Shown here: one piece after another, positions 7,822-14,018 of the stretch
Layout of the letters: each line of letters opens with the position of its first letter
Numbering within the stretch: the first letter of the stretch is position 1
Assembly (NCBI GenBank): GCA_030615705.1
Contig: JAUWYT010000008.1
Location: forward strand, 1 to 15,248
Reading direction: 5' to 3'
Length of the DNA stretch: 15,248 nt
Source: Chloroflexota bacterium
GTDB taxonomy: Bacteria > Chloroflexota > Anaerolineae > VGOG01
Program-made: the position numbers and the translations under genes
The notes under the pieces: model-generated
What the model saw: the letters and a program-made list of their open reading frames with translations, nothing else
The model's database searches: none
Told to the model about the DNA's origin: nothing

Positions 7822-8547
7822 GTGTATCGGATCAGCCAGTTCTTCCGGGCTCTGGTAGCTTGGGTGCCAAAACAGGAACTCAGCCTGCTAAGCGAATATC
7901 TGACTCCAGTGCAGGCCGAGCTTTTTCAACGGATGCCCCGATGTGACCAACGCCATGGCCTGGATGTCTTCCATGCCTTGCGGACAAAGCAGCACAATGA
8001 CCACGACTTGCTGATAGCTGCCCTCTTGCACGATGTGGGCAAGAGCGGCGGTTTCCTGAGCCCTTCGACAAGCCCTCGGCCTGAGGCTCGGCCCGAAGGC
8101 TCAGGACGGCGCCTGTCGAAGGGTGGGCGGTTGCGATTGTGGCATCGAGTGCTCATCGTCCTGATCGAGGCACTCAAGCCTCAACCCTTCGACGGGCCCC
8201 TGGTCCTTTGGCACTGTACCGGACCCTTGGTCCTGGGGCCCTGTACTTGTCGTCCAGGACAAGTGCCCAAGGACCCAGGGCGGTCCAGTACGGTGCCCAG
8301 GGACAAAGGGCTCAGGACACCGCTGTTGGATAGGCTGGCCTCGGAGGAACCGTCCAGTTGGCGCTACCCCTTCTTCGTCCATCAGCAGCATCCCGAGTTA
8401 GGAGCGGAGTTGGCTCAAGCGGCGGGTTGTTCGCCTACCACTGTAGAGTTGATTCGACGTCATCAAGAGCCTCTCGCCGACAACCCGTTCAGAACTCATG
8501 AGGACGAACTGCTGGCAGCACTGCAGGAGGCCGAGGGGGTGAACTAA
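7822..8547 (+). CDS. HD-domain protein with two repeat-encoded insertions
   Basis: The framework is an HD-domain hydrolase: MPRCDQRHGLDVFHALRT supplies the first His, AALLHDVGKS the HD pair (about residues 68-77), and TVELIRRHQEPL a late His. Two segments do not belong to the domain. Residues about 78-102 (LSPSTSPRPEARPEG...) come from repeat copy A directly after HDVGKS. Residues 121-167 (QPFDGPLVLWHCTG...LRTP) come from copy B between IEALKP and LLDRLAS. Removing them restores GKSGGRLRLWHRV and EALKP-LLDRLASEEPSSWRYPFFVH, both natural-looking. Copy B adds exactly 141 nt, so the frame is kept. The GTG start at 7822 follows the M50 stop with no gap, suggesting coupling. Whether the enzyme still works with a loop inserted beside its metal site is open. 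Confidence 0.85.
   Translation: MYRISQFFRALVAWVPKQELSLLSEYLTPVQAELFQRMPRCDQRHGLDVFHALRTKQHNDHDLLIAALLHDVGKSGGFLSPSTSPRPEARPEGSGRRLSKGGRLRLWHRVLIVLIEALKPQPFDGPLVLWHCTGPLVLGPCTCRPGQVPKDPGRSSTVPRDKGLRTPLLDRLASEEPSSWRYPFFVHQQHPELGAELAQAAGCSPTTVELIRRHQEPLADNPFRTHEDELLAALQEAEGVN
8054..8125 (+). repeat. Palindromic element copy A (in HD gene)
   Basis: Outer arms CCCTTCGACA (8061-8070) and TGTCGAAGGG (8114-8123) are perfect inverted repeats. Between them a CCTGAGGCTCGG / CCGAAGGCTCAGG imperfect hairpin. The left arm is read in phase c-CCT-TCG-ACA. CTCAGGAC near the right arm is shared with copies B, C and F. Confidence 0.85.
8182..8322 (+). repeat. Palindromic element copy B, multi-layer (in HD gene)
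   Basis: Starts CAACCCTTCGACGGGCCCC and ends GGGCTCAGGACACCG. Layers from outside in: CCTGGTCCTTTGG with CCCAGGGACAAAGG; CACTGTACCGGACC with GGTCCAGTACGGTG; CCCTTGGTCCTGGG with CCAAGGACCCAGGG; and the core TACTTGTC-GTCCAG-GACAAGTG. It is exactly 47 codons and read in phase CCC-TTC-GAC. It is nearly the reverse complement of copy D. Confidence 0.9.
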
Positions 8548-8590
8548 CAAGTCAACAAGTAACGAGGTAACGAGTAACAAGTCAACGAGG
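8546..8590 (+). repeat. Degenerate 15-nt tandem repeat
   Basis: Three 15-nt units alternate 8- and 7-nt halves built on AACAAGT/AACGAGG: AACAAGTCAACAAGT, AACGAGGTAACGAGT, AACAAGTCAACGAGG. The array begins inside the stop codon of the HD gene and occupies the first part of the spacer before tyrA. Confidence 0.8.
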
Positions 8591-8646
8591 ATTTGAAAAA
8601 GGAACGTTGTAGTGTTTCGGCAAATGTAACAGTGCCAAGTTAGAAT

Positions 8647-8675
8647 TGACCACCTGACCAAAGACCATCTGACCA
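8647..8675 (+). repeat. GACCAtCTGACCA-type repeat before tyrA
   Basis: Short direct units (TGACCACCTGACCA, then AGACCATCTGACCA) directly ahead of the tyrA ribosome binding site. The 19-nt stretch at 8657-8675 matches 11569-11587 inside a glycosyltransferase gene with two differences. Confidence 0.7.
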
Positions 8676-8690
8676 GATAAGGAGGTTTTT

Positions 8691-9755
8691 ATGAAAAAAC
8701 CGCGGATTACGATAGTGGGTTTGGGCTTCATTGGTGGATCCATCGGGCTTGCCCTGCACCAAGCTGAAGCCGATTTCGAGATAGTCGGCCACGACCGGGA
8801 ACGCGCTGTAGCCCGAAAGGCGAAAAAAACCGGTGCTGTGGACAAGACCGACTGGAACCTGGTCTCCGCGTGCGAGGGCGCTGACCTGATCGTCATTGCC
8901 ACCCCGGTGGGGGCCATCAAGGACACTTTGACGGCCGTCGGGCCTTACCTCAAGCCAGGTTGCTTGATCACCGACACGGCCAGCATCAAGGCACAGGTAA
9001 TCGAATGGGCAGAAGAGATACTCCCCGAGGAAGTGAACTTCGTAGGCGGGAATCCCATCGTTAGTGATGTAGGGACAACCCTTCGACAGGCCCCTGGTCC
9101 TTTGGCCCAGGGACAAAGGGCTCAGGACACCGCCGCCGCTGGGCGCCTGTCGAAGGGAATTGACGCGGCCAGAGCTGACCTTTTCTCTGGAGCGATTTAT
9201 TGCCTCACCCCCGCAGCAGGTACTGCTTCCGACGCAGTGCGGTTGGCCTCCGATTTTGTTTACCTCTTGGGCGCTGAGCCCTACTTTCTCGATCCCCTCG
9301 AGCACGATGGCCTCATGGCCGGCGTTGATCACCTGCCCTTCGTTCTCTCCGCTGCTTTACTGGGGATCACCACCGAGAGCGCATCATGGCGGGAGATGCG
9401 CAGGCTGGCCGGAGGTGCCTTCGAGAGCGCCACTCGCTTCGTCTCGGCTGACCCAACGACTTATGGCGATGCTTGTCTCGTCAACAGGGAAAACATTGTG
9501 CGCTGGATTGACACCTGTTTGAGGAGGCTGGGTGAACTAAGGGAGACCATCCTTGCCGAGGACGCCGAGAAATTGGAGCAGGTCTTCGAGAAGGCTCTGA
9601 TAGCTCGCCAGAGATGGCTGAAGTCCAGGGAAGAAGGTAGCTGGGACGTTCGTGAGCCTCAGTCGAAGGAGGGACGGCCACCCGAGGTGCCTGCATCGCC
9701 GGGCTTCATGAGCCGGCTCTTAGGCTTGAGAGGCCTAGGTGGGTGGAGGACGTAG
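8691..9755 (+). CDS. tyrA: Prephenate dehydrogenase-like protein with repeat insertion
   Basis: A 354-residue protein of the TyrA family, which oxidatively decarboxylates prephenate (or arogenate) in tyrosine synthesis. The N-terminus ITIVGLGFIGGSIGLAL is the NAD(P)-binding Rossmann loop; VIATPVGAIKDTL, DTASIKAQVIEWA and GIDAARADLFSGAIYCLTP are family blocks, followed by the helical dimerisation domain. The usual GGHPMAG motif reads GGNPIVS here, so the position of the conserved histidine is Asn121. Just after it, residues about 129-156 are encoded by repeat copy C. AAGGAGG lies five bases before the ATG. The extra C-terminal tail (EEGSWDVREPQ onward) is low in family resemblance. The family is certain; retained activity is not. 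Confidence 0.88.
   Translation: MKKPRITIVGLGFIGGSIGLALHQAEADFEIVGHDRERAVARKAKKTGAVDKTDWNLVSACEGADLIVIATPVGAIKDTLTAVGPYLKPGCLITDTASIKAQVIEWAEEILPEEVNFVGGNPIVSDVGTTLRQAPGPLAQGQRAQDTAAAGRLSKGIDAARADLFSGAIYCLTPAAGTASDAVRLASDFVYLLGAEPYFLDPLEHDGLMAGVDHLPFVLSAALLGITTESASWREMRRLAGGAFESATRFVSADPTTYGDACLVNRENIVRWIDTCLRRLGELRETILAEDAEKLEQVFEKALIARQRWLKSREEGSWDVREPQSKEGRPPEVPASPGFMSRLLGLRGLGGWRT
9076..9157 (+). repeat. Palindromic element copy C, simplest form (in tyrA)
   Basis: Perfect 13-bp outer arms CCCTTCGACAGGC (9079-9091) and GCCTGTCGAAGGG (9145-9157). Inside is a single C-type module, CCCTGGTCCTTTGG joined directly to CCCAGGGACAAAGG, then CTCAGGACACCGC. There is no inner layer. Read in phase CC-CTT-CGA-CAG, giving TLRQAPGPLAQGQRAQDT. 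Confidence 0.92.
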
Positions 9756-9763
9756 GGCTAGCT

Positions 9764-10024
9764 GTGGCCATCGTTTATGTTCTGCAATGCGCCGACGGGA
9801 CTCTCTACACTGGCTGGACAACGAACTTGGGGCAGCGTCTGCGGGCTCACAACAGTGGACAGGGCGCCAGGTATACCCGTGGCCGTCGGCCGGTGTGTCT
9901 AGTGTACTGGGAGGAGCAGCCTACCAGGAGCACGGCGCAAAGGCGAGAGGCGGCCATACGCCGCCTAACCCGTGCCAGCAAACTAAAGCTGATCGAAAGG
10001 AAGCGCAATGGCGAAAGCTACTGA
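9764..10024 (+). CDS. GIY-YIG nuclease-domain protein (UPF0213/YhbQ-like)
   Basis: A small stand-alone GIY-YIG domain: VAIVYVLQCADGTLYTGWTTNLGQRLRAHNSGQGARYTRGRRP has the VYxL...LYTG pair that corresponds to GIY...YIG, the catalytic Arg region (LGQRLRAHN), and the family-specific RREAAIRRLTRASKLKLI near the end. Length (86 residues from the GTG at 9764) fits the UPF0213 group, whose role in DNA metabolism is not well settled. An upstream GTG at 9743 in the same frame would overlap tyrA by 13 nt. I prefer 9764 because the domain begins right after it and AGGG precedes it. The stop is overlapped by the start of the GT2 gene, and repeat copy E begins six bases beyond the stop. Confidence 0.82.
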   Translation: MAIVYVLQCADGTLYTGWTTNLGQRLRAHNSGQGARYTRGRRPVCLVYWEEQPTRSTAQRREAAIRRLTRASKLKLIERKRNGESY

Positions 10025-10820
10025 GCGGTGTCCTGAGCCTGACTTCGGCGAGCCCCTCGGCCTGAGCTCGGGACGAAGGCTCAGTCGAGCCGTCGAAGGG
10101 GAGAAAACCTTGGGACAGGAAGAGTTGAGCATATCAGTGGTCTTGCCCGCTTACAACGAGGAGGCAAACGTTCGCCAGGCCGTTGGAAGTGCGCTTGAGG
10201 TGATGGAATCCATCACTCCTAGCCACGAGATCATCGTGGTGGATGATGGCAGTCATGATCGTACCTCGGAGGTTGTCGAGGAACTTGCGGAGAGCTATCC
10301 TAAGGTCACGCTAATCCGGCATGAAATCAATCGGGGCTATGGTGGGGCCTTGAACTCTGGTTTTAGCGCTGCTACCGGTGAACTGGTCTTCTTTACGAGT
10401 TCCGATAACCAATATGACGTCGCTGAAGTAAGGAAATTGCTGCCTTTTATCGAAACCGCTGAACTGGTGATCGGTTATCGGGCCAACCGGCAAGATCCCT
10501 TCATCCGTCGCCTTTTCGCCTGGGGCTGGAATACGTTGGCAAATCTGATGTTTGGTTATGTGGCTCGCGACATTGACTGCGCTTTTAAGCTTTTCAAGCG
10601 CGAGATTCTATCCCAGGTCCGTATAACCTCAAAGGGCGCCATGATAGACACGGAGCTGCTGGTTGGGGCAAAGAGAAGGGGTTTTCGCGTCATCGAGGTG
10701 CCGGTAAGCCATTTCCCCCGCTTGGCGGGAGCGCAAACTGGAGCGAATGTCCACGTTATTCTACGAGCCTTTCGGGATTTGCTCAGGTTCCGCCTGCAAT
10801 TGTGGAGAGAGGCGGATTAG
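10008..10820 (+). CDS. GT2 polyprenyl-phosphate sugar transferase (DPM1-like)
   Basis: A GT-A family 2 enzyme resembling dolichol/undecaprenyl-phosphate mannosyl- or glucosyltransferases, which load a sugar onto a lipid carrier on the cytoplasmic side. Family blocks: ISVVLPAYNEEANV, EIIVVDDGSHDRTSEVVEEL (nucleotide binding), RGYGGALNSGF, the acidic FTSSDNQYD where DADGQFD-type motifs sit, DIDCAFKLFKREIL, and GFRVIEVPVSHFPRLAGAQTG. No membrane anchor is visible. From the ATG at 10008 (AAGGAAG ahead, 17-nt overlap with the previous gene) the first 30 or so residues are encoded by repeat copy E and resemble nothing. A TTG at 10110 has GGGGAG six bases upstream, formed by the end of that repeat, and would give MGQEELSISVVLPAYNEE. 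Both starts are possible; function is secure. Confidence 0.88.
   Translation: MAKATERCPEPDFGEPLGLSSGRRLSRAVEGEKTLGQEELSISVVLPAYNEEANVRQAVGSALEVMESITPSHEIIVVDDGSHDRTSEVVEELAESYPKVTLIRHEINRGYGGALNSGFSAATGELVFFTSSDNQYDVAEVRKLLPFIETAELVIGYRANRQDPFIRRLFAWGWNTLANLMFGYVARDIDCAFKLFKREILSQVRITSKGAMIDTELLVGAKRRGFRVIEVPVSHFPRLAGAQTGANVHVILRAFRDLLRFRLQLWREAD
10030..10101 (+). repeat. Palindromic element copy E (start of GT2 gene)
   Basis: GTCCTGAGCCTGACTTCGGC ... CCCCTCGGCCTGAGCTCGGG ... GACGAAGGCTCAG ... GTCGAAGGGG. It has the same order of blocks as copy A, with more mismatches in the outer arms. Its last bases create a GGGGAG that can serve as a ribosome binding site for the downstream TTG. Confidence 0.75.
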
Positions 10821-10829
10821 CTTCAGGCA

Positions 10830-13800
10830 ATGAGCGATGTTTTGGAATCGAGCGCTGATAGAACGACCAATCGAAGCGAGGGCTCGGGGGTACCTCCTGC
10901 CCCCTCTTTGCACCCCGGCCGAGAATGGCTCTCCTATGCTTTGTTGCTCCTTTTCATAGCCTTGGCTTTCGCTCGAGGGATCTACGGATTGGGGTCCCAA
11001 AGCCTCTGGTGGGATGAGAGCTTAAGCTTGCAGCGGGCCAGCTATGATTTGCCTCTCATCTTGTCCAACGAAATCGTCCTCACCGATACCACCAGGCAGT
11101 TGATTACTTTCGACAATCACCCTCCCCTCTATTTCCTCCTGTTGCACTTCATGGTCAAATTGGCGGGCCAAAGCGAGTTCGCCCTGCGGTTCCCCTCCCT
11201 GGCCTTCAGTGTTTTGACCGTACCCTTGCTCTACGCTCTGGGGAAGTGCCTCTGCGATCGGGGTGTAGGGCTGTTGGCTGCCCTCTTCGGCGCTATCTCT
11301 CCGTTATACCTCTGGTACTCCCACGAAGCGAGAATGTACACCATGCTCACTTTTCTGGGCCTGCTGTCGTTCTACACCCTGTTGAGAATGCTGCGTCCTA
11401 AGCCCTTTGTCCCTGGGCACCGTACTGGACCGCCCTGGGTCCTTGGGCACTTGTCCTGGACCCTTTGTCCTTGGGCCAAAGGACCAAGGGCGACAAGTAC
11501 AGGGCCCCAGGACCAAGGGTCCGGTACAGTGCCAAAGGACCAGGGGCCTGTCGAAGGGTTGACTCAGTACCAAAGACCGTCTGATCACCCGACCAGGGAC
11601 CATCTGACCATAATCTATGTTTTGTCCTCCGTAGCTATGTTGGCTACCCACTATCTGAGCTTTTTGGTCTTGCTAGCGGAGCTGGTTGTCTCTTTCTTAT
11701 TCATCCGCGAGGCCAGGTGGCAGCGCGTAGCGATTCCAGTGCTTGGAGTTCTATTGATTGCCTTGCCCATCCCTTACCGCGGATTTTCCACCTTAGCCGA
11801 AGGGGAGGCGGGCGGGTTTCGCTTTACCCCTCTGCTCGAGCTCCTGCGTGATGTGTCCAACTCCTTCAGCCTGGGGCTATCGGCCAAGGCCGAACAGGTC
11901 TTGGTCGTCCATTGGGTCTTTCGAGGCGTTTTCCTGATCGGGGCTCTGGCCATAGCCCGGAGGGGTTTTCGCCCTCTGTCTCCTAAAGCCTTGTCAGCTT
12001 TGATCTATTTATTGGTGCCCCTCTTTTCTATCTATCTCCTCTCCTATGTCCAACCAGCCTATATGAACATCCGGCATCTGATGGTGTCCAGCCCTGCCTT
12101 TTATCTGATCTTGGCCGTGGGGCTGGTCACCATCAGGAAGAAATGGCCTCTGATCTTCGCCAGTTGTTTAGCCTTGATGGTTGTTGGCTCAGCTCACTCC
12201 ACCCAGCAGTACTTCTACAACGAAAAACATGCTAAAGATGATCATCGGAGCTGGGGGGAGTACCTCCAGGCCCATGCCCAGCCGGGTGACATCATAGTCG
12301 TAGACCCACCGCACATCTCCCAGCTTTACCATTACTATGCCGACGCTGGCCTGCCCTGGACGGGGTTGCCACGGTTGGTCAGCCCCGAAGAAGCCACCAT
12401 CTCTGCTCTTGAGGAGTTGATGGCCGGGTACGAACGCATCTGGCTGGCCTTCTCTGGCACCCCTGACTGGGGCGACCCAGAGGGTTTGCCCAAGAAGTGG
12501 CTTGAAGAGAGTGCCTTCTTGGTGGATGAGCGAAGCTTTCACACCTACTCCTCTTTGGTGCAAACCTTTTGTTTCCTGACGAATCCGCCCATGCTCGATA
12601 CCCCGCCTGAGGTTCAACACCGGGTGGAGACGAACTTTGAGGACAAGCTCCTGTTTTTAGGTTATGATCTGAAGGGCAGGCCCGCCGCTGGTGGGCAGTT
12701 TTTGCACCTGAACCTGTATTGGAAAGCCCAGCAGAAGCTGGGGGAAGATTACGGGGTTTCGCTGCGTCTTCTCGACGGGGAGAATCGCCTCTGGGGGCAG
12801 GCCGATCGGGCACCCCTCAATGGCCACTATCCCACCTCACAGTGGCAGCCGGGCCAGATCGTCAAGGACGATTATGAGCTTTTAATTGATGCCGGCACGC
12901 CGCCGGGTTGGTACCGTTTGGAGATGGTGGTTCACGACGACAGCCAGGCGCTGGCTATCGTCGGTGAGAATCCAAGCCCCCGGAGGACGGCGGTAGATAT
13001 TGGGTTCCTTGAGGTGGAAAAGCCAGCCTCTCCACCTTCGCTGGCCTCATTGCCCCTGGAACATCGTCAGGGTATGGATTTTGGGGATCTTCAGCTCCTG
13101 GGCTACGACTTGGTCGAAGGGAGCTACCGGCCGGGAGATTGGGTGTGGGTACGACCATACTGGCGAGCCCTTCGGCTGGCCCCTGGTCCTTTGGCACTTG
13201 TCCTGGACGACAAGTACAGGGCCCAGGGACAAAGGGCTCAGGACAGAGCCACGCGGAAGCTGGCACAAGATTACTCCTTCTACCTGCGTCTGGTGGATGA
13301 GAGCAGGCGGCTTTGGGCCGAGGAGGTGATTCGCCCTGCTGGCGATGGATACCCCACCATCTCTTGGCATGAGGGGGAGATAGTGAAGGGGCAACACTCG
13401 CTACGCATCCCCTTTGACGCCCCTGAAGGGGATTACTACCTGGGGATCGTGCTGCGGCAGCCTAAACTTGCTCAGTCAAGCGGCTTCCTGGCTGGTTTGT
13501 TTAGAGCATTCTCCTCCGATGGCGATGCCCTGGACCTGGGAAAGATCCACATGGTTGAGGCCCAGCGCGAGTTCGACGTTCCGCCCATCCAGCATCCTTA
13601 CCAAGCTAACTTTGGAGGCTTGGTGGAGTTTTTGGGTTATGATTTAGAGAGGACCGAATTGAGTTCCGGCGATGTCCTGCCTCTGACCCTCTATTGGCGG
13701 GCCCTTGAGCAGATGGACACTAGCTACACGGTATTCACTCACTTGCTGGACGAAGACCATTGCATCTGGGGGCAGCAGGACAACCCGCCAAAGGAAGGGG

Positions 13801-14018
13801 GGCATCCGACGACGTTGTGGATGAAAGGCGAAGTGGTGACCGACAGTTATCATATTCCTGTAAACCCTGATGCCCCGCCGGGCGAATACGTCATCGAGAT
13901 AGGCTTGTACGACGCGGCGACGGGAGCCCGGCTGCCGGTTCTCGATCAAGAAGGGCTGATGCTCGACAACAGGATTCTGTTAGCGAAGATTGAGGTGGAC
14001 AAATGGACTCTTCGCTGA
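10830..14018 (+). CDS. Large GT-C membrane glycosyltransferase with three beta-sandwich repeats
   Basis: A 1062-residue protein. Residues about 33-465 form a multi-helix GT39/PMT-like GT-C domain: SLWWDESLSLQRA has the acidic motif of the first outer loop, NHPPLYFLLLHFMVK and ALRFPSLAFSVLTVPLLYALG follow; these enzymes use a polyprenyl-phosphate sugar. After a soluble stretch come three tandem modules, starting near 603, 750 and 928. Each opens F-x-LLFLGYDL, continues LxLYWxA...YxVxLRLLDExxxxWGQ and GHPTxxWxxGEIVxDxY, and closes PPGxYxLEIGLYD. These are probably extracytoplasmic carbohydrate-binding sandwiches. Two stretches are foreign: about 188-260 (repeat copy D plus another repeat) between membrane helices after LLRMLRP, and 780-806 (copy F) between YWRAL and LAQDYSFYLRLVDE. 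The frame survives both. It lies 9 nt after the GT2 gene, which probably makes its donor. Confidence 0.85.
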   Translation: MSDVLESSADRTTNRSEGSGVPPAPSLHPGREWLSYALLLLFIALAFARGIYGLGSQSLWWDESLSLQRASYDLPLILSNEIVLTDTTRQLITFDNHPPLYFLLLHFMVKLAGQSEFALRFPSLAFSVLTVPLLYALGKCLCDRGVGLLAALFGAISPLYLWYSHEARMYTMLTFLGLLSFYTLLRMLRPKPFVPGHRTGPPWVLGHLSWTLCPWAKGPRATSTGPQDQGSGTVPKDQGPVEGLTQYQRPSDHPTRDHLTIIYVLSSVAMLATHYLSFLVLLAELVVSFLFIREARWQRVAIPVLGVLLIALPIPYRGFSTLAEGEAGGFRFTPLLELLRDVSNSFSLGLSAKAEQVLVVHWVFRGVFLIGALAIARRGFRPLSPKALSALIYLLVPLFSIYLLSYVQPAYMNIRHLMVSSPAFYLILAVGLVTIRKKWPLIFASCLALMVVGSAHSTQQYFYNEKHAKDDHRSWGEYLQAHAQPGDIIVVDPPHISQLYHYYADAGLPWTGLPRLVSPEEATISALEELMAGYERIWLAFSGTPDWGDPEGLPKKWLEESAFLVDERSFHTYSSLVQTFCFLTNPPMLDTPPEVQHRVETNFEDKLLFLGYDLKGRPAAGGQFLHLNLYWKAQQKLGEDYGVSLRLLDGENRLWGQADRAPLNGHYPTSQWQPGQIVKDDYELLIDAGTPPGWYRLEMVVHDDSQALAIVGENPSPRRTAVDIGFLEVEKPASPPSLASLPLEHRQGMDFGDLQLLGYDLVEGSYRPGDWVWVRPYWRALRLAPGPLALVLDDKYRAQGQRAQDRATRKLAQDYSFYLRLVDESRRLWAEEVIRPAGDGYPTISWHEGEIVKGQHSLRIPFDAPEGDYYLGIVLRQPKLAQSSGFLAGLFRAFSSDGDALDLGKIHMVEAQREFDVPPIQHPYQANFGGLVEFLGYDLERTELSSGDVLPLTLYWRALEQMDTSYTVFTHLLDEDHCIWGQQDNPPKEGGHPTTLWMKGEVVTDSYHIPVNPDAPPGEYVIEIGLYDAATGARLPVLDQEGLMLDNRILLAKIEVDKWTLR
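11393..11561 (-). repeat. Palindromic element copy D, deepest nesting, inverted (in GT-C gene)
   Basis: Orientation is opposite to copies A-C. On the plus strand it runs from CGTCCTAAGCCCTTTGTCCC to CCTGTCGAAGGGTTG. It has all layers of copy B plus one more: within the core CACTTGTCCTGGA...GACAAGTAC an extra C-type palindrome CCCTTTGTCCTTGGG/CCAAAGGACCAAGGG (11461-11490) replaces the loop. Read as KPFVPGHRTGPPW... without stops. Confidence 0.9.
11569..11610 (+). repeat. GACCAtCTGACCA-type repeat inside coding sequence
   Basis: ACCAAAGACCGTCTGATCA (11569-11587) and a partial second unit CCAGGGACCATCTGACCA (11593-11610) directly follow copy D in the GT-C gene. They are read as QRPSDHPTRDHLT. 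The same unit occurs between genes at 8657-8675. Confidence 0.7.
13168..13249 (+). repeat. Palindromic element copy F, intermediate nesting (in GT-C gene)
   Basis: CCCTTCGGCTGGC, then CCCTGGTCCTTTGG, then the core CACTTGTCCTGGACGACAAG, then CCCAGGGACAAAGGGCTCAG and GAC. Compared with copy C, one hairpin layer is inserted exactly between TTTGG and CCCAGGG. Same phase as copy C (APGPLA...AQGQRAQD). The right outer arm CCTGTCGAAGGG is missing. Confidence 0.88.

Follow-up and report, generated by a model that had tools for sequence, protein, structure and literature searches.

The DNA analysed here, called the window, is one whole contig (C250, JAUWYT010000008.1; 15,248 nt) of the metagenome-assembled genome (MAG) of a Chloroflexota bacterium (G000; 1.90 Mb, 79.6% complete, 322 contigs), and it carries six short palindromic repeat elements. 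Five lie inside open genes, two in an HD-domain gene, one in a homologue of the prephenate dehydrogenase TyrA and two in a PMT_2 glycosyltransferase (Table 1). A preliminary description made from the sequence had located these six elements, and each is present where it was reported; BLAST with the six as queries reveals no further segment in the contig, and an Rfam scan of the window finds tRNA only. The proposal of a repeat family that inserts into coding genes without loss of frame, and on either side of which conserved sequence continues, is upheld. The remaining element (10030-10101), previously placed at a gene start, can be located more closely, in the N-terminal or leader part of a family 2 glycosyltransferase (GT2) gene upstream of its conserved part; alignment to G001 and G002, two other genera of the same family that hold syntenic orthologues, begins at residue 39-41. 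All six elements had been said to share the same blocks. Those at 8054-8125 and 10030-10101, however, carry 27-nt modules that differ from those of the other four. Two inverted pairs of elements are 96-97% complementary over 72-75 nt. Beyond that earlier reading lies the feature with which this report is chiefly concerned, namely stepwise insertion into the exact centres of palindromes in lengths that are multiples of a codon.

Table 1. Host genes, elements and nested modules in the window (nt positions; halves are given for modules split by another module)
Feature	Position	Strand	Remarks
Gene for HD-domain protein, two elements	7822..8547	+	Open reading frame (ORF); Pfam HD PF01966, 25.2 bits
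Element 1, core-type repeats and one nested 27-nt palindrome	8060..8124	+	
Module H, 27 nt, nested in element 1	8073..8099	+	
Element 2, 138-nt insertion (24+30+27+30+27), stack A-B-C2-I-D	8185..8322	+	Exact parse
Element 2, module B, 30 nt	8197..8310	+	Halves 8197-8211 and 8296-8310; 0 mismatches
Element 2, module C2, 27 nt	8212..8295	+	Halves 8212-8223 and 8281-8295; 0 mismatches
Element 2, module I, 30 nt, class I	8224..8280	-	Halves 8224-8238 and 8266-8280; 0 mismatches
Element 2, module D, 27 nt, innermost	8239..8265	-	Absent from P0121 (9 aa shorter)
Gene for prephenate dehydrogenase (TyrA) homologue	8691..9755	+	Pfam PDH_N and PDH_C flank the element
Element 3, core A and module B, inverted partial core at 3' end	9076..9157	+	
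Element 3, module B, 30 nt, unsplit	9091..9120	+	Its 10 aa absent from P0002
Gene for family 2 glycosyltransferase (GT2)	10008..10820	+	Pfam Glycos_transf_2, 116 bits, residues 48-208 of stop-to-stop frame
Element 4, core-type repeats and nested 27-nt module (10053-10079)	10030..10101	-	
Gene for large PMT_2-type glycosyltransferase, two elements	10830..14018	+	Pfam PMT_2, 47.3 bits; orthologues in G001 and G002
Element 5, core A with five modules inside it (stack A-B-C2-I-D-E)	11393..11559	-	
Element 5, nested modules, 144 nt in total	11403..11546	-	All 0 mismatches; bracket-like nesting
Element 5, module B	11403-11417, 11532-11546		Halves
Element 5, module C2	11418-11432, 11520-11531		Halves
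Element 5, module I	11433-11447, 11505-11519		Halves
Element 5, module D	11448-11460, 11491-11504		Halves
Element 5, module E	11461-11490		Unsplit
Element 6, stack A-B-D	13165..13251	+	
Element 6, modules B and D	13180..13236	+	B 13180-13194 and 13222-13236; D 13195-13221 at the centre of B; 0 mismatches

Folding and reading of the repeat segments reveal long hairpins that are themselves composed of hairpins. The core repeat, A, is 24 nt long (CCTTCGACARG^CTCAGGAC) and a 30-nt palindrome of class I interrupts it at a single position; the class I palindrome is in turn interrupted at its exact midpoint by a class II palindrome of 27 or 30 nt, itself split again. The six elements of the window are merely a sample of this architecture. 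BLAST searches of the MAG gave 100 matches with one element as query and 30 with a second; 40 of the 84-86 candidates were scored, and 41 of the 322 contigs were read (the window and 40 more, ~268 kb), which together contain 74 repeat segments, the window's six included. Recursive excision with a library of 12 module sequences, read from these data and applied to the 74 segments, resolves 143 modules at 49 loci, which are spread over 38 of the 41 contigs, while 25 segments are without any module of the library. Given the fractions of candidates scored and contigs read, the 49 nested loci are a lower bound, so that the MAG holds at least that many. The modules are nearly uniform (no mismatch in 128, one in 10, two in 2 and three in 3), with a mean divergence from consensus of 0.56%, and the same procedure finds no module in shuffled segments. 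In many loci the residue left after excision is core A, as where CCCTTCGACAGG is joined to CTCAGGACA.

The fixed lengths are also seen when no library is used. A search for internal stretches whose removal yields an uninterrupted sequence known from another locus gave 265 events, of which 164 are multiples of 3; these unfiltered events include many pairs of 28, 29 and 31 nt, which we interpret as switches from an arm of one module to a similar arm of another. When removed stretches were required to be palindromic (cut-off at about the 99th percentile of random sequence), 59 events remained and 57 of these are multiples of 3, with lengths of 30 nt (24 events), 27 nt (20), 21 nt (8), 57 nt (3), 12 nt (2) and 26 nt (2).

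The insertion points are equally regular. Class II modules split class I modules 15/15 in 44 of 44 cases, and class I modules, whose hosts are A or class II, split D 13/14 (18 of 18), D2 or D3 14/16 (9 of 9) and C or C2 12/15 (4 of 4). The two classes thus mostly alternate; the exception is F inside C, class II within class II, which nevertheless lies at the centre (13/14, 9 of 9), and the off-centre exception is class I inside E, at 9/21 in 6 of 6. Of 53 outermost modules, 44 are class I and 9 class II, and the greatest nesting depth, seven, is reached at C22:3591-3876. Additions that are palindromic and placed almost always at the tip would also be expected if the hairpins grew locally, through replication slippage or template switching at the apex and without mobility. 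Such growth should, however, have produced varied local copies, whereas the same few near-identical modules occur at 49 loci, and we regard this origin as highly improbable.

Two further observations concern individual loci. The long stacks at C22:3591-3876 (L081), C65:709-909 (L090), C247:515-720 (L083) and C43:5592-5731 (L092) have similar flanks, with GCTGCTTTTCAC upstream and, except in C43, where the contig ends, sequence like CTTTTCTTTGTGCCTTGG downstream (C22 in part); such shared flanks suggest that these stacks may sit within a longer repeat. At C6:1874-1930 (L116), a long open frame with Pfam matches of unrelated kinds contains a module that resembles B but is 31 nt long owing to an additional C.

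The alignment of host genes with orthologues, which the preliminary description had put forward as a check, shows both sites of the HD gene and the TyrA site uninterrupted in the syntenic orthologues of G001 and G002. At element 1 the window's HD gene is 75 nt longer than in these genera, and at element 2 both have the empty site, where CCTCAA directly abuts YTGTTGG. Metagenomic relatives with 90-96% protein identity provide the intermediate steps, as allelic series at single sites in which each step is a whole number of codons. Among the 27 other TyrA sequences aligned (of 120 listed homologues; 910 found), P0005 has no insert and P0002 has the core; relative to the window, where core and module B are both present, P0002 is missing exactly B's 10 residues. 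Those relatives of the TyrA homologue that carry a name come from Anaerolineales, Anaerolineae or Chloroflexi bacteria, which itself makes Chloroflexota the most likely source. For the HD protein (13 homologues aligned of 120 listed; 341 found), P0121 carries A-B-C-I at the second site where the window has A-B-C-I-D, and exactly the nine residues of D are absent; at the first site, 9 aa of element 1 are absent from P0123-P0125. Elsewhere in this family, a module-like insert of 19 residues occurs at a different position in the more distant homologue P0129, and the insert in P0178 resembles the core plus B.

The PMT_2 glycosyltransferase (12 homologues aligned of 90 listed) extends the series at both of its sites. 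At site 1, P0242 has A-B-C, P0241 has A-B-C-F and the window has A-B-C-I-D-E; 10 of the 12 aligned homologues have no module stack here, and the DNA of G001 has a bare A. At site 2, P0242 has a bare A, P0241 A-B-C and the window A-B-D, the site being empty in the same 10 of 12; the G001 contig stops short of it. G002 has, at site 1 (window 11390-11562 compared with L130 and L131), a tandem array of GTCAAACGTGAAAC-like units instead, and CATCACG arrays occur in G001 and G002 near the start of the GT2 gene (window 10020-10110). These two gene regions thus tolerate varied inserts.

These series bear on whether the stacks could be an artefact of assembly or chimerism in a fragmented MAG. The genome is in 322 contigs, and at 14 of the 49 nested loci a contig end is no more than 60 nt away. 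Yet shorter versions of the same stacks occupy the same sites in other records (P0002, P0121, P0241 and P0242), whose longest contigs are not the same as that of the window, and one exact B occurs in an IMG/VR contig (L121), so that an artefact is scarcely credible. Homologous recombination or gene conversion between repeat copies, by which copies of A or A-B would swap their interiors and so spread stacks, deserves more weight and is possible, although we would not favour it as the whole account. Identical stacks recur in differing A cores, with B-C-F as the sole set in 7 loci and B-D-E in 4, and the change at site 2 from A-B-D in the window to A-B-C in P0241 would be a one-step exchange of a cassette inside B. 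Against this, common flanks amount to only ~12-15 nt per arm, recombination would have to build, at one and the same site, the five-module stack of the window from the bare A of G001, and it leaves the origin of the first insertion at each module centre unexplained. Whole nested stacks such as B-C-F do appear also to move into pre-existing copies of A, and recombination between copies probably moves some of them.

A reading frame spans 48 of the 49 nested loci, and 24 of the 30 frames scanned (of 41 spanning frames of at least 180 aa) have a Pfam match. Hosts supported in this way include CoaE, a His_biosynth protein (HisA by PDB match), MutL, Mfd and the TyrA homologue, together with Fe-ADH, an amidohydrolase, an ABC ATPase and a PAS/GAF histidine kinase; in several, Fe-ADH and the amidohydrolase among them, Pfam matches a domain that does not include the element, and in the window's HD gene the match ends upstream of the first element. 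Comparison of five hosts with PDB sequences shows clean insertions of ~43, 33 and 25 residues in CoaE, HisA and TyrA, respectively, with the target residues all kept; for TyrA, residues 11-130 and 156-313 align with PDB 4WJI. In MutL, 52 unaligned residues face 4 in the target, the element itself accounting for 37, and Mfd is less clear, with 153 unaligned residues facing 125. An AlphaFold model of the TyrA homologue was set aside on account of its mean pLDDT (predicted local distance difference test) of 50.5. Where solved prephenate dehydrogenases have their GHP motif, this homologue reads GGNPIV and so is without the usual histidine; many relatives have GGDPIV at this position, and G001 and G002 each have a second TyrA copy, 34-40% identical. 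Between the TyrA and GT2 genes lies a 93-aa ORF without an element (9743-10024; conserved at 76-78% in G001 and G002), whose product by eye resembles a GIY-YIG protein.

Most reading frames of the modules are open. Nine of the 12 in the library are free of stops in all six frames; the hand-picked main five (B, C, D, E and F) together contain 0 stops over the six frames, where arm-permuted shuffles give 5.9 (p 0.0014), and over all twelve 66 of 72 frames are open against 58.8 in such shuffles (p 0.011). Among segments of at least 100 nt, 18 of 38 are open in five or six frames, compared with 2.0% of random stretches from the same contigs. As each insertion step is a whole number of codons (9 or 10), genes stay readable, and as B is read in 5 of the 6 frames over its 15 gene-borne copies, no particular peptide seems to be selected. 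It could be supposed that ribosomes skip the inserts, as in Magnusiomyces mitochondria and in gene 60 of phage T4, and the presence of nucleotide blocks in many genes does resemble the mitochondrial case (PMC5009743). Skipping, however, requires neither lengths divisible by 3 nor an open frame, and both are kept here, with filtered lengths nearly all multiples of 3; bypass is thus very unlikely and also not required.

The inner modules look young relative to the cores around them, the 18-nt A cores that surround B differing pairwise by 13.8% (32 rows, one shifted by a base) and the enclosed B by 1.5%. Exact uninterrupted A is patchily distributed among relatives, occurring in 11 of 60 genomes, the MAG included, with 33 copies in G001 and 4 in G000. 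The class relative G049 has 69 exact copies of core A (CCTTCGACARGCTCAGGAC) and one short match to a B-bearing element. The modules themselves look lineage-specific. BLAST across 396 genomes of the class (at most 2 candidates scored in each) matched G000 and G001 only, and a search of 100 relatives with a B-bearing element matched G000, G001 and G049; G001 has diverged relatives of B in A and of class I in class II. Two exact class I patterns have 0 matches in a collection of one genome per species, from which records very near the window's genome are possibly excluded, and the modules have no match in phage or plasmid collections. Among IMG/VR viral contigs, two class I patterns match one and the same contig, whereas two nested-junction patterns have 0 matches; the exact 30-nt B at L121:1254-1283 (IMGVR_UViG_3300009136_000791) stands alone with no core A; it is flanked by two long ORFs and also by a pair of near-identical stretches of the TTTGATCATTT type.

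Comparison with known systems helps to define what is particular to this one. The preliminary description named the Rickettsia palindromic elements (RPEs), short palindromic repeats in frame within unrelated conserved genes (PMC3733652), as the established case. That comparison holds, since the Chloroflexota modules likewise lie in frame inside unrelated conserved genes and are absent from orthologues; RPEs are nevertheless not the sole precedent, as the same article describes intragenic palindromes of the repetitive extragenic palindrome (REP) type in several species, Opitutus terrae among them, and classes RPE-4 and RPE-6 as CGTC REPs. RPEs belong to another phylum, have other sequences and, in the text consulted, occur as single units, dimers or clusters, whereas the modules here are hierarchically nested. 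The likeness to GTAG and CGTC REPs as presented there (PMC3733652) consists in palindromic repeats within genes, and REPs inserted within palindromes are known, such as GTAG-23 of T. roseum (Di Nocera 2013, PMC3733652). Even so, none of the 12 modules contains GTAG on either strand, unlike GTAG REPs or the REPINs of REP-associated tyrosine transposases (RAYTs). A CGTC REP of the RPE-4/RPE-6 type has, according to PMC3733652, a CGTC tag followed by an 8-9 bp stem beginning with AT pairs; core A begins CGTCCTGAGC (CGTC) on one strand, but on reading its halves are not complementary and the reported stem is lacking. Exact-centre mutual insertion with codon-multiple lengths is not among the REP features described in the accessible text of PMC3733652.

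Y1 (HUH) transposases, of the RAYT or IS200 kind, act on hairpins in single-stranded DNA and leave no duplication, which would suit the insertion seen here. If the modules were REP-type elements moved by such an enzyme, the Y1_Tnp genes present in G000 (4), G001 (3) and G002 (2) would be candidates. We nevertheless consider this unlikely, and membership of the RAYT/REP group is not supported: the modules have no GTAG tag, no Y1_Tnp gene was found beside copies in flanks of up to ~1.5 kb, and a comparison of thirteen 10-letter patterns from modules and core with nine Y1_Tnp loci gave a single 10-mer match, in L132, which is likely to be chance.

Another parallel lies in Nostoc, where Elhai reportedly described, in Genome Research in 2008, small dispersed repeats (SDRs) of 21-27 nt that form hairpins, some of them nested in their own copies. 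These share with the modules the insertion of units of ~21-30 nt into copies of themselves or of relatives; they differ in belonging to cyanobacteria, with other sequences, and are not known to form codon-multiple stacks in conserved genes with allelic series. For one of them, SDR5, insertion at an exact point of HIP1 is reported in PMC4390886. Mitochondrial hairpin elements, GC clusters and bypassed inserts are similar as hairpin or block inserts that are sometimes found in genes (PMC2800124, PMC5009743), but the bypassed inserts of organelles break the frame and are skipped, unlike the modules here. A palindromic repeat can also be a specific insertion target, as where insertion sequences (IS) target REPs (Tobes and Pareja 2006, PMC1525189), although there the inserts are IS elements and not modules of 27 or 30 nt. 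Miniature inverted-repeat transposable elements have terminal inverted repeats with a fixed target-site duplication, and no duplication of fixed length is seen at the module junctions read. In the open-licence literature we found no report of codon-multiple modules nested at centres inside genes and no match to the exact core strings.

Taken together, the best explanation, to which we assign a probability of roughly 0.7, is that the repeats are non-autonomous mobile modules of very small size, directed to the tips of hairpins and read through by the ribosome as harmless insertions. The modules with their fixed lengths, the exact points of insertion, the graded alleles and the in-frame position within conserved genes are observed directly, and they support recursive insertion at hairpin centres. 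A module of fixed length, an imperfect palindrome of 30 nt (class I) or of 27 or 30 nt (class II), would enter the centre of core A or the hairpin apex of another module, and repeated rounds would produce Russian-doll stacks in which the two classes mostly alternate. An enzyme acting in trans may recognise the extruded tip of a hairpin or cruciform. The modules are predicted to be translated as harmless insertions in the host protein, and stacks could endure within genes, given steps of 9 or 10 codons and the absence of stops from all six frames of 9 of the 12 modules. More tentatively, and at somewhat less than even odds, the repeats could be regarded as a self-assembling hairpin system, in which two classes that target each other's apices in codon-sized quanta grow within working genes, supply standing in-frame length variation in the conserved proteins of a wild population and represent a mode of mobility without a known enzyme.

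Several points weigh against the mobile-module explanation. No enzyme was found; the four Y1_Tnp genes of G000 are without modules in the fetched flanks (at most ~1.5 kb), and in a genome 79.6% complete one could be missing. The junctions read have no constant target-site duplication, a possible duplication varying from 0 to 3 nt between module types. Independent insertions must be fewer than 143 because whole stacks recur, and the exact matches are not independent of the module library, which was drawn from the same loci, although the allelic series are. Only 21 of the 48 loci with a spanning frame count as lying in a gene by the size threshold used, namely a frame of 200 codons or more that leaves 30 or more to either side of the element, and the shortage of stop codons is no more than marginal when all 12 modules are taken together (9 against 14.6, p 0.067). 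Among homologues, P0003 and P0004 have a differing sequence variant at the TyrA site, and P0184 appears to run out of frame after the second element of the HD gene, being either a broken allele or a sequencing error.

The modules represent mobile DNA near the lower limit of size, with an exact recursive rule whose intermediate steps survive as natural alleles. They make the origin of bacterial short palindromic repeats directly testable, as one can read which site is targeted (a hairpin tip), how long the unit is (27 or 30 nt) and in what order insertions took place, and the nested modules offer a clean substrate for finding the enzyme responsible. They also show how mobile DNA can add predicted peptide segments to conserved enzymes without breaking them.

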